This document shows, one piece after another, positions 1,016 through 22,122 of a stretch of 30,645 bases of DNA. The position numbers and the translations under genes are program-made. The notes beneath the pieces are model-generated. The model was not told the DNA's origin. It searched no databases and was given only the letters and a program-made list of their open reading frames with translations. Origin of the DNA: a virus; the IMG/VR virus record IMGVR_UViG_3300035701_007228, positions 1 through 30,645 of that record, one strand, 5' to 3'. Position 1 is the stretch's first letter. Each line of letters opens with the position of its first letter.

Positions 1016-1232
1016 CTATGGGTTATTGAAATTTGAAAGCCACCAAACCATCAGCCAAGAAAATCCTACACCAAATAGCAACCCGATTCCTGTCCTGACA
1101 TCCGCCCCATAGATAGAATCGAGTGCGAGTAAGACCAAATTAACGGAAATACAGCCAAGGAAGCTGATATGTGTATTTGGTGGCTTTCAAATTTCAATAA
1201 CCCAGGGAGGTAATTTTGTTCTCATTTTCCAT
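1016..1232 (-). pseudogene. Disrupted small membrane-protein gene
   Basis: On the minus strand an open frame ending at TAG (1016-1018) encodes a hydrophobic stretch (SFLGCISVNLVLLALDS, then GIGLLFGVGFSWLMVWWLSN) typical of two membrane helices. It has no usable start codon: a stop lies just upstream. A separate 12-codon ORF with an ATG (1232-1230) stops inside a 29-bp sequence that is an exact inverted copy of the gene's own 3' end. The likeliest reading is a small membrane-protein gene whose 5' part was overwritten by an inverted copy of its 3' end. A rare start codon is the alternative. The stop codon abuts element C, as for the other genes here. Confidence 0.45.
1019..1204. repeat. Perfect 29-bp inverted repeat, 128-bp spacer
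   Basis: Positions 1019-1047 and 1176-1204 are exact reverse complements over 29 bases (TGGGTTATTGAAATTTG... at the left arm). The spacer holds most of the small membrane ORF. The right arm contains the stop that ends the 12-codon ORF beginning at 1232. Confidence 0.9.
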
Positions 1233-1243
1233 ATTTGGTTTTG

Positions 1244-1354
1244 TGCGGAGAGACAGGGTTTTTCCTGTAAATGTTCACCACGTTCGGGGGTTCGCGCTTT
1301 TGTGAACACGGTAATCCTCCCCTACCGCTGCCTTTAACTCGACCACTCTCCGCA
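1244..1354 (-). ncRNA. tRNA-like multibranched structured RNA (candidate)
   Basis: Read on the minus strand, the ends pair as TGCGGAGAG with CTCTCCGCA (9 bp). Inside are a tRNA-like D-arm segment (GTGGTCGAGTTAAAGGC), a hairpin CGGTAG-7 nt loop-TTACCG in the anticodon-arm position, a long arm TGTTCAC/GTGAACA, and a hairpin ACAGG/CCTGT directly before the closing stem. The order matches a class II tRNA cloverleaf (Leu/Ser type). However, the T loop lacks TTC, the D loop lacks GG and there is no encoded CCA. Several wobble pairs form only in the minus-strand RNA, the sense of the surrounding genes. It could be a degenerate tRNA or a novel structured RNA. Confidence 0.5.
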
Positions 1355-1370
1355 TTGACGATTTAAGTAT

Positions 1371-1440
1371 CATGGCGGACCGGATTAGCCGACCGTCTTG
1401 GGTTTGACAATCAATTCGTCCGCGTGACGTCGCCGCCATG
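1371..1440 (-). repeat. CATGGCGG-bounded intergenic element D
   Basis: The shortest copy, 70 bp, from CATGGCGGACCGG (1371) to CGCCGCCATG (1431-1440), with eight-base perfect inverted ends. It starts 12 bases past the stop of the SSB gene and is followed, in gene sense, by the tRNA-like RNA. Confidence 0.6.
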
Positions 1441-1452
1441 ACGATAGCTCAT

Positions 1453-2667
1453 CTACAGCTTCCTACGTCCTCCAGTCCGGTCTCCCGTCTCTTTCTCAGG
1501 CTCGGACCTTGGGGCTGGTCTGATAGGCCGACGGGAAGATTGTGCCTTTCTACGTTCTGTCTCAATCTCATCAGCCTTCTCACCACAGGCATCATACTTT
1601 TCTGTCACACAGTCTTTACAATCCTCAGGGAACTGGTCAATATCGACCCCAAACTCGTGACCTCGCGGACAATCTCCTTCAACCTTACTCGCCTCTTGTG
1701 CAGGCTCTGCCCTACGACCCCTCTGTGGTAGACGCCCCAGGTCTTCCTTCGGCTGTTCCCTCTCAGGAGTGTCCTCCCTCCTTGACCTGGAAGACCGCTC
1801 CTCAGGCTCCTCCGCATTCAGGACCTCAGAATCCCTTCCCCTACCCAGACCCTCGGACTTTGCACTGGCGAAAAAGGCATCGTGAATCTCAGCATAGGAA
1901 GGGACATAAACAATCTCATCCAGGCAATAAACAGAGTCCAAGGTGCCGTCGTCAATATCGTAATCCCGATCCTCAAACGCATAACCAGAATAGCTGGTAT
2001 TAGTTTTGCCCGTCCCTGTCCGCGTAAACTGAATGGTCTTTCCCAACTCCTTTTCTGGTAGAGCGAAATGCACTTCTCCCCCACCTCGCGCCTTGTGGGA
2101 TATAGCCTGAATCTCTTTTTCAAACTGGTAGTGGGATATCGGCCACACCTGAATGCCCTTGTCCTGCTCACCCTTGTCGTAGCACATAATATTGTAAAGA
2201 CAGTATCGAGTGGGACGCAGTGGGGATATCACCTTCTGGTAATACTCCTCTGCCGTAATACCCGGAGGATTGCCCTCCTCAATCATCTGCTGGCGCTTCT
2301 CACAAATGGGACAATCCCCATACAGCCGATGTCCTACATGATACGTAGTCAAGGGACAAACGAAATCTTGATCCGCTGGACCAATGAACCTATGCAGGTA
2401 TCCCTCCCACCGATAATCCGGCTTCCCGGGCTTGACCTTCGGATCTGGATGTAACCCCCGCTTGTCCTTGTCATCCTTCCCTGCTACGTGGGTCATGTAC
2501 GGAATGATGTCCAGCAAGTGCAAGCCCTCTCCCGCCCACCAGGTGAGAATTCCCAGTTCCGGCTTCAGAACCGAGGACGCCCGGCTACCTCCCCGATCCT
2601 TGGTAGCGTAAGACTCCCTGGCCCTGTTCATCAACTCCTCTGCCATGCTCTTGCGATCATACTTCAT
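1453..2667 (-). CDS. Single-stranded DNA-binding protein, T4 gp32-like
   Basis: A 404-residue protein with the layout of phage gp32-type SSBs. An N-terminal segment leads into an aromatic-rich core (ILTWWAGEGLHLLDIIPY). A zinc-binding cluster around residues 105-125 (CPLTTYHVGH...CPICEKR) follows, then a YNIMCYDKGEQ strand and a beta-rich part (HFALPEKELGKTIQFTRTGTGK). The C-terminal 130 residues are a highly charged, low-complexity tail with a second Cys/His patch (CPRGHEF...CKDCVTEKYDAC). It would coat ssDNA at the fork and recruit replication and recombination proteins. The ribosome site AAGGGAG lies upstream, and the start overlaps the preceding membrane-protein gene by 11 bp. The family call is by motif, not alignment. 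Confidence 0.7.
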   Translation of the reverse strand: MKYDRKSMAEELMNRARESYATKDRGGSRASSVLKPELGILTWWAGEGLHLLDIIPYMTHVAGKDDKDKRGLHPDPKVKPGKPDYRWEGYLHRFIGPADQDFVCPLTTYHVGHRLYGDCPICEKRQQMIEEGNPPGITAEEYYQKVISPLRPTRYCLYNIMCYDKGEQDKGIQVWPISHYQFEKEIQAISHKARGGGEVHFALPEKELGKTIQFTRTGTGKTNTSYSGYAFEDRDYDIDDGTLDSVYCLDEIVYVPSYAEIHDAFFASAKSEGLGRGRDSEVLNAEEPEERSSRSRREDTPEREQPKEDLGRLPQRGRRAEPAQEASKVEGDCPRGHEFGVDIDQFPEDCKDCVTEKYDACGEKADEIETERRKAQSSRRPIRPAPRSEPEKETGDRTGGRRKL

Positions 2668-3153: not shown

Positions 3154-3174
3154 ATTTACCTCCTTTCAAATTAG

Positions 3175-3330
3175 CATGGCGGGCTTACTCGCGGCTTCAC
3201 GGGAGTTACTCTTCCTCCACCGCTTTCGGCCATCTCCCGCTCCTCGAAGTCCCCGAGGCGGGGAAACTTCAGCCTGGGATTTATGGGAGCGCTCGATGAT
3301 GGGTCTTATCTTATGCCCACCGCCGCCATG
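3175..3330 (-). repeat. CATGGCGG-bounded intergenic element E
   Basis: The longest copy, 156 bp, from CATGGCGGGC (3175) to CCGCCGCCATG (3320-3330). It starts 8 bases after the stop of the 3339-3833 gene and ends just before the ribosome site of the PEP-CTERM gene. It contains a GAAGTCCCCGAGGCGGGGAAACTTC inner hairpin. Confidence 0.6.
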
Positions 3331-3338
3331 CTTTACCA

Positions 3339-4034: not shown

Positions 4035-4063
4035 ATCTTGCCCTCCCCAACCCTTCCTTTAAT

Positions 4064-4160
4064 CCCCCAAGCAAGGGGCCTAATCTCCCCCAGGACGAGT
4101 TATTATTACTCTCCCCTTATAAGTCCCTTACCCTAACCCCTGAACTCGTTAAATGGGGAG
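4064..4160 (-). repeat. CTTATAAG intergenic repeat, copy 1
   Basis: A 97-bp unit. Positions 4093-4145 match copy 2 (about 18815-18867) exactly for over 50 bases, including CCCCTTATAAGTCCC. Short inverted arms ACGAGTT/AACTCGT bracket the centre, and an outer CCCCCAAGCAAGGGG palindrome lies at the left. It fills the gap between the clamp-loader stop and the small KIYLAG gene. Confidence 0.75.
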
Positions 4161-15847: not shown

Positions 15848-15988
15848 TCATCCGTCCAGGGATTCACATTTTACCTCCGCCATACACATATCGCATCTTT
15901 CCGACCCACCCTTGGTAGTGCACTCATCCCTACCGTCATTCTCTTCCAAGAGAATTCGGCCACACGCACAGCAGACCCACTGAATCAT
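15848..15988 (-). CDS. 46-residue zinc-finger-like protein
   Basis: A short frame, MIQWVCCACGRILLEENDGR, then CTTKGGSERCDMCMAEV. The CxxC pairs (CCAC, CDMC) suggest a small zinc ribbon. The ATG overlaps the TGA of the HNH-QueD gene (ATGA), a usual sign of coupled translation. Function unknown. It was found by reading the gap between the two annotated neighbours. Confidence 0.6.
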   Translation of the reverse strand: MIQWVCCACGRILLEENDGRDECTTKGGSERCDMCMAEVKCESLDG

Positions 15989-16935
15989 TCTTCCGCCCGC
16001 CACGTAGCAAAGGATTCAATGTTATCTGACAACACCGACAACATTCCTTCCTTCGTTAAGGATGCCTCACTTGTAGGAGTTTCCCATAAGTCAATCCTCT
16101 CTATCCCTTTCAAATGGGCATCAAACATCAACACCTCCCACACTCTAATTAAGATGTTCTCCGCAGTAGGATTATCAATGTAGTCGTTCAGATAAGAGTG
16201 GTCAAGTGATGATATAACATATTCATTCACAACATTCTTCAGAACGGAAAAATCAAGGACCATGCCGGTTTTCTTATCCACTCTCTTCTTAATAGACACC
16301 ACTAATGACCATTCGTGCCCATGCAAATCACTGCAAGACCCCTCATAATCAGGTAATCTATGAGCGGCAGCAAAAGAGAATATTTTCCCTATCGTAATGA
16401 ATGGCTGTTTTTGCAAGGAGTAATGAAAGTGGCCATGACAACCAACACAAAGGGGCTCAAGATTCGAGGGAAGAAAATTACTACTATCTTCATCAATATG
16501 ATGAACATTTATTTTCTTACCCGACCCACATCTTCTACACACTGTAATGTCCTCGTACTGAGATAAAAACTCTTTGTACTGATTTTTAGCCAAAAACAAA
16601 GGGGTGTGATTTTCAGGTTTGAACAGGGGACTTAATGCCCCCCTCATCCCTACCATTCCATTTATCCGTTTCTCATACACCCCTTCGTCCCAACGAGACT
16701 TGACTGCTTTGGAAATCCTCTCTCTCACATCCTTTCTCTTTGTCGCGTTCCCCTCCCCTCTGTTAAAACGGGACGCCCCACCAAATTTCAATCCATATTC
16801 CCTTACTTTCTCGTTGAGGTACGTAAGACTTTTGCGTCCAAGTTTATCTGCTATCTGCCTCTGAGTCAACCCTTCTTCTATATACTTTTGTAGCTCACTC
16901 TTGGTAACTTGCAAAAGAATCTTTCTACTCACCAT
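15985..16935 (-). CDS. queD: HNH homing-endonuclease-like protein fused in frame to QueD
   Basis: A 316-residue continuous frame. Residues 11-48 are a helix-turn-helix (LTQRQIADKLGRKS). Residues 68-92 resemble a NUMOD-type DNA-binding segment. Residues 133-171 are an HNH motif (CRRCG, NVHHIDED, LCVGCHGHFH). Residues 183-295 are a complete QueD: FSFAAAHRLP (His192), CSDLHGH (Cys201, His205, His207), MVLDF, SLDHSYLND (Asp245/His246), NPTAEN and ETPTS. QueD makes CPH4 from dihydroneopterin triphosphate. AAAGGAG before ATG 16935 sets the start. I see no ribosome site or start codon for a free QueD, so it is probably made as a fusion. A second QueD N-terminus lies immediately upstream. Confidence 0.88.
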   Translation of the reverse strand: MVSRKILLQVTKSELQKYIEEGLTQRQIADKLGRKSLTYLNEKVREYGLKFGGASRFNRGEGNATKRKDVRERISKAVKSRWDEGVYEKRINGMVGMRGALSPLFKPENHTPLFLAKNQYKEFLSQYEDITVCRRCGSGKKINVHHIDEDSSNFLPSNLEPLCVGCHGHFHYSLQKQPFITIGKIFSFAAAHRLPDYEGSCSDLHGHEWSLVVSIKKRVDKKTGMVLDFSVLKNVVNEYVISSLDHSYLNDYIDNPTAENILIRVWEVLMFDAHLKGIERIDLWETPTSEASLTKEGMLSVLSDNIESFATWRAEE

Positions 16936-17008
16936 ATGTCTCCTTTCCCTCATGCTCTGGCAACCGATGAGCGTATTCAAATCGAAAGATCCTTGTCACT
17001 GTTAACAC
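16925..17008 (-). pseudogene. queD: Truncated QueD N-terminus ahead of the HNH insertion
   Basis: A 27-codon frame with a strong ribosome site (GAGGAGG, then GTG): (M)LTVTRIFRFEYAHRLPEHEG, then KETYGE and stop. This is the opening strand and AHRLP zinc-ligand motif of QueD, matching GKIFSFAAAHRLPDYEG in the downstream fusion. It stops just inside the HNH gene, overlapping that start. It is read as the original queD 5' end, left behind when an endonuclease gene inserted and was joined to a full-length QueD. The two DNA copies differ at many synonymous positions. Confidence 0.75.
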
Positions 17009-17019
17009 TATTGCCTCCT

Positions 17020-17097
17020 CTACCACATCTTTGATAGAAACGTAACCACAAAGAACAGCACAACAAACAGAGTTATCAAGCACCAGGCTTTCTGCAT
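17020..17097 (-). CDS. 25-residue membrane peptide
   Basis: MQKAWCLITLFVVLFFVVTF followed by LSKMW: a single membrane helix with almost nothing else. AGGAGG lies four bases before the ATG and promoter P3 just upstream, so expression is likely. It is the first gene of the queD operon. Function unknown; such peptides are easily missed in annotation. Confidence 0.6.
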   Translation of the reverse strand: MQKAWCLITLFVVLFFVVTFLSKMW

Positions 17098-22007: not shown

Positions 22008-22122
22008 CCCCAAGCAAGGGGTCAAATCTCCCCCAGGACACGTTTTCTTTCCTATCCCCTTATAAGTCCATTACCTTCCCCACTAAACATGTCCTGGGGG
22101 AGATTAGACCCCTTGCTTGGGG
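22008..22122 (-). repeat. CTTATAAG intergenic repeat, copy 3, with long inverted arms
   Basis: Arms of about 38 bases, 22008-22046 and 22085-22122, are almost perfect reverse complements (CCCCAAGCAAGGGGTC at the left end, GACCCCTTGCTTGGGG at the right). They flank a centre containing CCCCTTATAAGTCC. This copy shows both halves of the family complete. It lies after the 22153-22368 gene. Confidence 0.8.

Follow-up and report, generated by a model that had tools for sequence, protein, structure and literature searches.

A 111-nt intergenic segment on the minus strand of an uncultured bacterial virus, at positions 1244-1354 of the window (the whole stretch of 30,645 nucleotides that was analysed), very probably descends from a tRNA-Ser gene. 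The initial annotation had described a tRNA-like folded RNA at this place; by its sequence the element is indeed tRNA-Ser-derived, but it is not a functional tRNA, as the features for decoding have been lost. Our preferred and still tentative reading is that it serves as an intercistronic structural RNA in the mRNA, made from tRNA-Ser, which may take part in processing or protecting the message of the neighbouring gene for a single-stranded DNA-binding protein (ssb). The element, its parts and its surroundings are as follows.

1244..1354, minus strand: putative tRNA-Ser-derived element, whole (111 nt), based on fold, pair probabilities, tRNA-Ser match and covariance model
1346..1354, minus strand: 5' strand of the closing stem, TGCGGAGAG; GGAGAG equals the tRNA-Ser acceptor and TGC is the partner of the former 3' end
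1244..1252, minus strand: 3' strand of the closing stem, CTCTCCGCA; tRNA-Ser CTCTCC-G73-CCA cut down to GCA, which is paired
1324..1351, minus strand: 5' block GGAGAGTGGTCGAGTTAAAGGCAGCGGT; 27/28 as in tRNA-Ser(UGA) once two deletions (1 nt and 3 nt) are allowed for
1330..1343, minus strand: D-like arm, with the 3-bp stem GTC/GGC of tRNA-Ser and a loop without G18G19
1308..1328, minus strand: anticodon-like arm; stem GCGGT/ACCGT, with AGGGGAGGATT in place of the tRNA loop and no U33 or serine anticodon
1273..1307, minus strand: expanded variable-like arm GTTCAC...GTGAAC, without tRNA similarity
1253..1268, minus strand: T-like arm ACAGG-AAAAAC-CCTGT, no TTCRA
1245..1259, minus strand: 3' block ACCCTGTCTCTCCGC; 15/15 as in the 3' ends of tRNA-Ser(GGA/CGA)
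1355..1369, minus strand: variable spacer from module D to the element; 6 of 15 bases changed in records G002 and G003
1370..1441, minus strand: module D, a stem-closed intercistronic neighbour (TCATGGCGG...CCGCCATGA), with a second copy in G002 that has no tRNA-like element
1453..2667, minus strand: upstream gene, gp32-like ssb, 404 aa (Pfam PF08804, E 5.3e-6)
1-113, 482-632, 915-1015, 1370-1441 and 3173-3332 of the window: modules bounded by CATGGCGG...CCGCCATG (8-10 bp stem)
L011:8587-8682, L012:6433-7371, L013:6433-6507 and L041:17734-17862: further such modules (the L041 stem being GGATGGCGG/CCGCCATCC)

Folding confirmed the coordinates, the minus strand, the 9-bp closing stem and the four arms that had been reported from the sequence. 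The minus-strand minimum free energy was -39.9 kcal/mol (z -2.72; 1 of 200 shuffles was equally good). Because the plus strand, with -36.8 kcal/mol (z -2.46), folds nearly like the minus strand, the strand is not chosen by energy. In the predicted minus-strand fold the arms follow one another as in a class II tRNA (D, anticodon, long variable, T): within the 9-bp closing stem lie a D-like arm of 3 bp, an anticodon-like arm of 7 bp with a 7-nt loop, a long variable-like arm of 6 bp, and a T-like arm of 5 bp that adjoins the closing stem. Pair probabilities were 0.83-1.0 and mostly above 0.9, but fell to 0.54-0.58 where the stems end and to 0.48-0.62 within the variable arm; the fold was kept when 253 nt (1200-1452) were folded as context. 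When the closing stem was held fixed and the interior shuffled, the z-score was -0.69 and 477 of 2000 shuffles folded equally well; the same shuffles yielded four arms in 99 cases (5%) and the arm placement of the element in 12 (0.6%). The window contains 26 perfect 9-bp stems of such span, and at the corresponding place in L014, a 52% relative, the fold was not significant (z +0.64). The fold by itself is weak evidence, and the decisive evidence is the sequence.

Among 57 bacterial tRNAs, the best local match to the element was the 3' end of tRNA-Ser (16/17). After enlargement of the reference set with phage-borne tRNAs, the 5' end was aligned to tRNA-Ser(UGA) with 27 of 28 aligned bases identical, a 1-nt and a 3-nt deletion apart (GGAGAG-TGGTCGA---GTTAAAGGCAGCGGT versus GGAGAGATGGTCGAGTGGTTTAAGGCAGCGGT), and the 5' and 3' matches were colinear with bacterial tRNA-Ser. 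The combined tRNA-Ser score was 55, while proline, the next isotype, scored 36. The ends are therefore tRNA-Ser-specific, and the class II likeness stands on firmer ground than the initial annotation could give it. In a null that preserved the base-paired structure the score was 31.7 +/- 2.3 with a maximum of 40, and none of 400 sequences reached 55. Some of the tRNAs in this set had been retrieved by means of a tRNA-Ser pattern. A second test therefore used tRNAs chosen independently of the tRNA-Ser match of the element, and here the element scored 49, above all 2000 null sequences (maximum 45). When it was ranked among 4,392 natural stem-closed segments, mostly coding and taken from 1.39 Mb of phage DNA, the element came fourth, behind three true tRNA genes, and the segment after it scored 46. 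It is on account of the colinear end matches, this rank and the unreached structure-preserving nulls that we hold tRNA-Ser ancestry, taken alone, with high confidence. The interior was considered as a second tRNA fragment, which was rejected since it has no tRNA similarity.

The phage segments also bear on the possibility that intercistronic or short coding DNA resembles tRNA-Ser by accident. We leave this reading a low probability because of a gene-like 26-codon frame (MRRVVELKAAVGEDYRVHKSANPRTW, 1275-1355, minus strand) that crosses the element, with a codon score of 0.075 that lies within the range of real genes, and because a D arm without GG can be imitated by coding DNA of the VVELKA type; the remaining database matches to the D-arm patterns are indeed coding, and GGGGAGGA lies 6 nt ahead of a GTG start. 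Against it, the real phage segments, mostly coding as they are, stay below the score of the element, the 26-codon frame has neither an upstream Shine-Dalgarno sequence nor relatives, and the GTG frame continues differently in G002 and G003 (L012 and L013). This GTG frame has 40 codons; the anticodon-like loop contains the Shine-Dalgarno-like GGGGAGGA, and the GTG 6 nt on opens the frame (window 1187-1321, minus strand).

A search with tRNA models, which the initial annotation had suggested, gave a divided result. With a tRNA-Ser covariance model built from 30 tRNA-Ser sequences, the element was the best match in the window (14.3 bits, E 0.09), and in relatives it scored 18.4 bits (E 0.07). The general tRNA family RF00005, on the other hand, was unreported at the element even at E <= 10, where Rfam gave chance matches alone and no family at its gathering score; ARAGORN found 0 tRNAs at the element, and nhmmer with a tRNA-Ser profile (a plain profile HMM) had no match there. 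The information-rich loops of a tRNA are precisely those that are replaced in the element. The three G-U pairs of the minus-strand fold had been taken as support for a real transcript, which is not established: ordinary tRNA-Ser genes share the D-stem G-U (TGGTCGAG...AAGGC), so that this pair shows ancestry and strand, not transcription.

Comparison with bacterial and phage tRNA-Ser(UGA) reveals which parts were kept. Common to both are the acceptor GGAGAG/CTCTCC, U8-G9, the 3-bp D stem, the GCGGT anticodon stem and the 3' block CCCTGTCTCTCCGC. Unlike tRNA-Ser(UGA), the element has a 35-nt variable arm, a 9-bp closed end and a 6-nt T loop, and it is without G18G19, anticodon, U33 and TTCRA. 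Specifically, its D loop reads GAGTTAAA and its T loop AAAAAC, so both features of the elbow (D-loop G18G19 and T-loop TTCRA) are missing. The anticodon-like arm is a 7-bp stem with the loop GGGAGGA, or alternatively a 5-bp stem with an 11-nt loop, and holds neither U33 nor a serine anticodon. The 9-bp stem ends flush, with GCA paired to TGC and no free discriminator or CCA; the next bases are CAAAAC. The departures in T loop, D loop and CCA had thus been noted correctly, and the loss of the anticodon loop is to be added to them.

Seryl-tRNA synthetase (SerRS) recognises its tRNA by the long variable arm, without reading the anticodon. This makes it attractive to read the element, with its class II architecture and enlarged variable arm, as a tRNA-Ser mimic or decoy for a host tRNA-handling protein such as SerRS, or for a tRNA-targeting defence enzyme. 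However, the anticodon loop as the target of anticodon nucleases is absent, the D and T loops that form the elbow are missing, and the variable arm does not resemble a tRNA. Although defences that cleave tRNA are countered by phage tRNAs (PMC10264068, PMC11555353), we regard a mimic as improbable on these features of the sequence.

The element lies downstream of ssb on the same strand, 15 nt past module D. No promoter- or terminator-like site was seen beside it, so it would be transcribed by read-through, within the operon transcript. Module D belongs to a larger set of stem-closed, multi-branched modules, bounded by CATGGCGG...CCGCCATG, which separate the accessory genes. In most of them the first arm stands near the closing stem and the last arm adjoins it, the middle being variable, and they are shuffled together with genes among close relatives. 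Among the SSB and polymerase relatives searched, these modules are confined to the clade of the window. A tRNA origin of the modules themselves was rejected, their tRNA scores (32-39) being about those of the null. Where module D occurs a second time in G002, the site is empty of the tRNA-like element, which is therefore an optional piece. A further unit nearby, at 1019-1204 of the window, consists of a perfect 29-bp inverted repeat (TGGGTTATTGAAATTTGAAAGCCACCAAA) around 128 bp that include a small membrane-like ORF, and it is not at that place in L012 and L013.

Identical copies of the element, one per record, are present in three near-identical virus records besides the window (G000-G003). 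The element is 100% identical in all of them, while 54 of the 2,363 positions in the whole shared stretch vary. The adjoining 3' end of ssb (250 bp) and module D are likewise unchanged, however, so the identity of the element is uninformative on selection. The argument that 100% conservation proves selection was dropped for this reason, and the unchanged block may reflect a recent exchange. Divergent copies were not found in viral contigs, one genome per species, phages or plasmids. The closing stem alone gave 9 unrelated matches in viral contigs, about the number expected by chance, and blastn against phages and plasmids gave no credible match. The D-arm patterns, besides the three known copies, hit coding DNA only in viral and genome contigs, and among relatives collected via SSB and DNA polymerase (80 polymerase loci) the D-arm pattern gave no further copy.

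Beyond the element the accessory region differs between G000/G001 and their near-identical records G002 and G003, with blocks exchanged. Between G000 and G002/G003 identity ends 6 bp past the 3' end of the element, much as at tRNA integration sites, which would fit a relic of an attP site or of an element that made use of a tRNA-Ser gene. We consider such a relic very unlikely, because no tyrosine integrase (PF00589) was found in the five records, all of which are fragments. Other modules have exchange points too, and attP cores normally hold just the 3' part of a tRNA.

In the history that we propose for a structural RNA, a tRNA-Ser gene of the UGA type would have been captured by the phage lineage and converted to a decoding-dead cloverleaf, with the acceptor, D, anticodon and T helices retained. 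The D loop would have lost G18G19 and the T loop TTCRA, the anticodon loop and variable arm would have been replaced, and the 3' end would have been shut into the 9-bp stem. Placed downstream of ssb, in tandem with the further stem-closed modules that lie between the genes of a shuffled cassette region, the result would act as a folded element in the polycistronic mRNA, where it would protect or process the ssb message on its 3' side and insulate the message from the variable cassettes. What the analysis shows is the predicted fold, the likeness to tRNA-Ser, the missing decoding features and the place of the element; transcription, selection on the fold and this action on the mRNA are what we infer.

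What favours retention of the fold is that all four helices of the tRNA are preserved while neither the anticodon loop, the T loop nor the variable arm carries any trace of a tRNA, and that a simulation of random decay with at least 30% of positions changed kept all four helices in 0 of 20000 runs, a somewhat strict count since some starting genes have a non-standard pair. The same observations weigh on the main rival, a passenger pseudogene, in which a phage tRNA-Ser, disrupted by deletions and with its interior replaced, would be carried without function in a region that often recombines. Every decoding feature is gone, recent common descent suffices for identical copies, blocks are exchanged in the region and ordinary tRNA genes are present in the relatives, all as a pseudogene would have it. 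Yet four helices seldom all survive random decay, and the interior still provides what the anticodon and T stems need for pairing; we consider a pseudogene unlikely, if less so than the other alternatives. A mosaic origin, with the interior swapped at one stroke, is possible. Counting against the structural-RNA reading are the single haplotype, a stability that, given the stem, is no better than in shuffles, the blank nhmmer result and the E-values of only 0.07-0.09 from the covariance model. A more far-reaching version, in which the phage remade tRNA-Ser into a dedicated intercistronic RNA device (for mRNA processing or for binding a tRNA-handling protein), and in which the device is one exchangeable member of a wider series of cloverleaf-like modules in the accessory region, seems doubtful to us.

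The nearest known case is tRNA-Other, a pseudo-tRNA of Bacillus cereus (PMC3399842), which is likewise an inactivated tRNA with no role in translation. It is chromosomal, lies beside a genomic island, and has mapped transcripts and a deletion phenotype, whereas the present element belongs to an uncultured phage, has a probable tRNA-Ser origin and replaced loops, and is known here from sequence. The promoter-early stem-loop cassettes (PeSLs) of T4-type phages (Arbiol 2010, Comeau 2014, both as cited in PMC4503421) resemble it, so far as that account goes, as structured intercistronic cassettes in a gene-shuffling region of close relatives; they carry an early promoter and a terminator-like stem-loop, whereas the element is a predicted cloverleaf with no such signal beside it. 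Its class would be a loose group of tRNA-derived, non-decoding RNAs or genes, represented here in a phage and by tRNA-Ser. Phage tRNA genes are usually seen as helpers of translation or as answers to tRNA-cutting defences. If our reading is true, the element would be a plain example of a phage tRNA put to new use because of its shape, with the helices kept and the translation loops lost. Such a tRNA-Ser scaffold is missed by tRNA finders, and a simple search for tRNA ends around a non-tRNA interior in phage intergenic regions would offer a route to more.

Several other features of the window and its relatives were observed. The UDG-PolA fusion polymerase of the window has no match in G002 and G003, though other stretches are shared, and a replacement of the polymerase gene in these records is possible. 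At 15985-17083, a QueD-like gene appears as an N-terminal fragment followed by an HNH-like ORF that is joined to a second QueD start, an arrangement that would fit the insertion of a homing endonuclease into the gene. A very strong long hairpin at 22008-22122 (-78.6 kcal/mol in a 131-nt fold) has two perfect 16-bp arms, and a degenerate partial copy of one of its sides lies near 4060-4100. Finally, L011:8531-8562, in a record (G001) that is 100% identical to the window where compared, holds a lone CRISPR-repeat-like 32-mer, GTCGCCCCCTGCGCGGGGGCGTGGATTGAAAC, with no adjacent array, which is a candidate solitary-repeat RNA anti-CRISPR; it matches repeated places on Nitratidesulfovibrio plasmids at 31/32 positions, a hint of a sulfate-reducing host.
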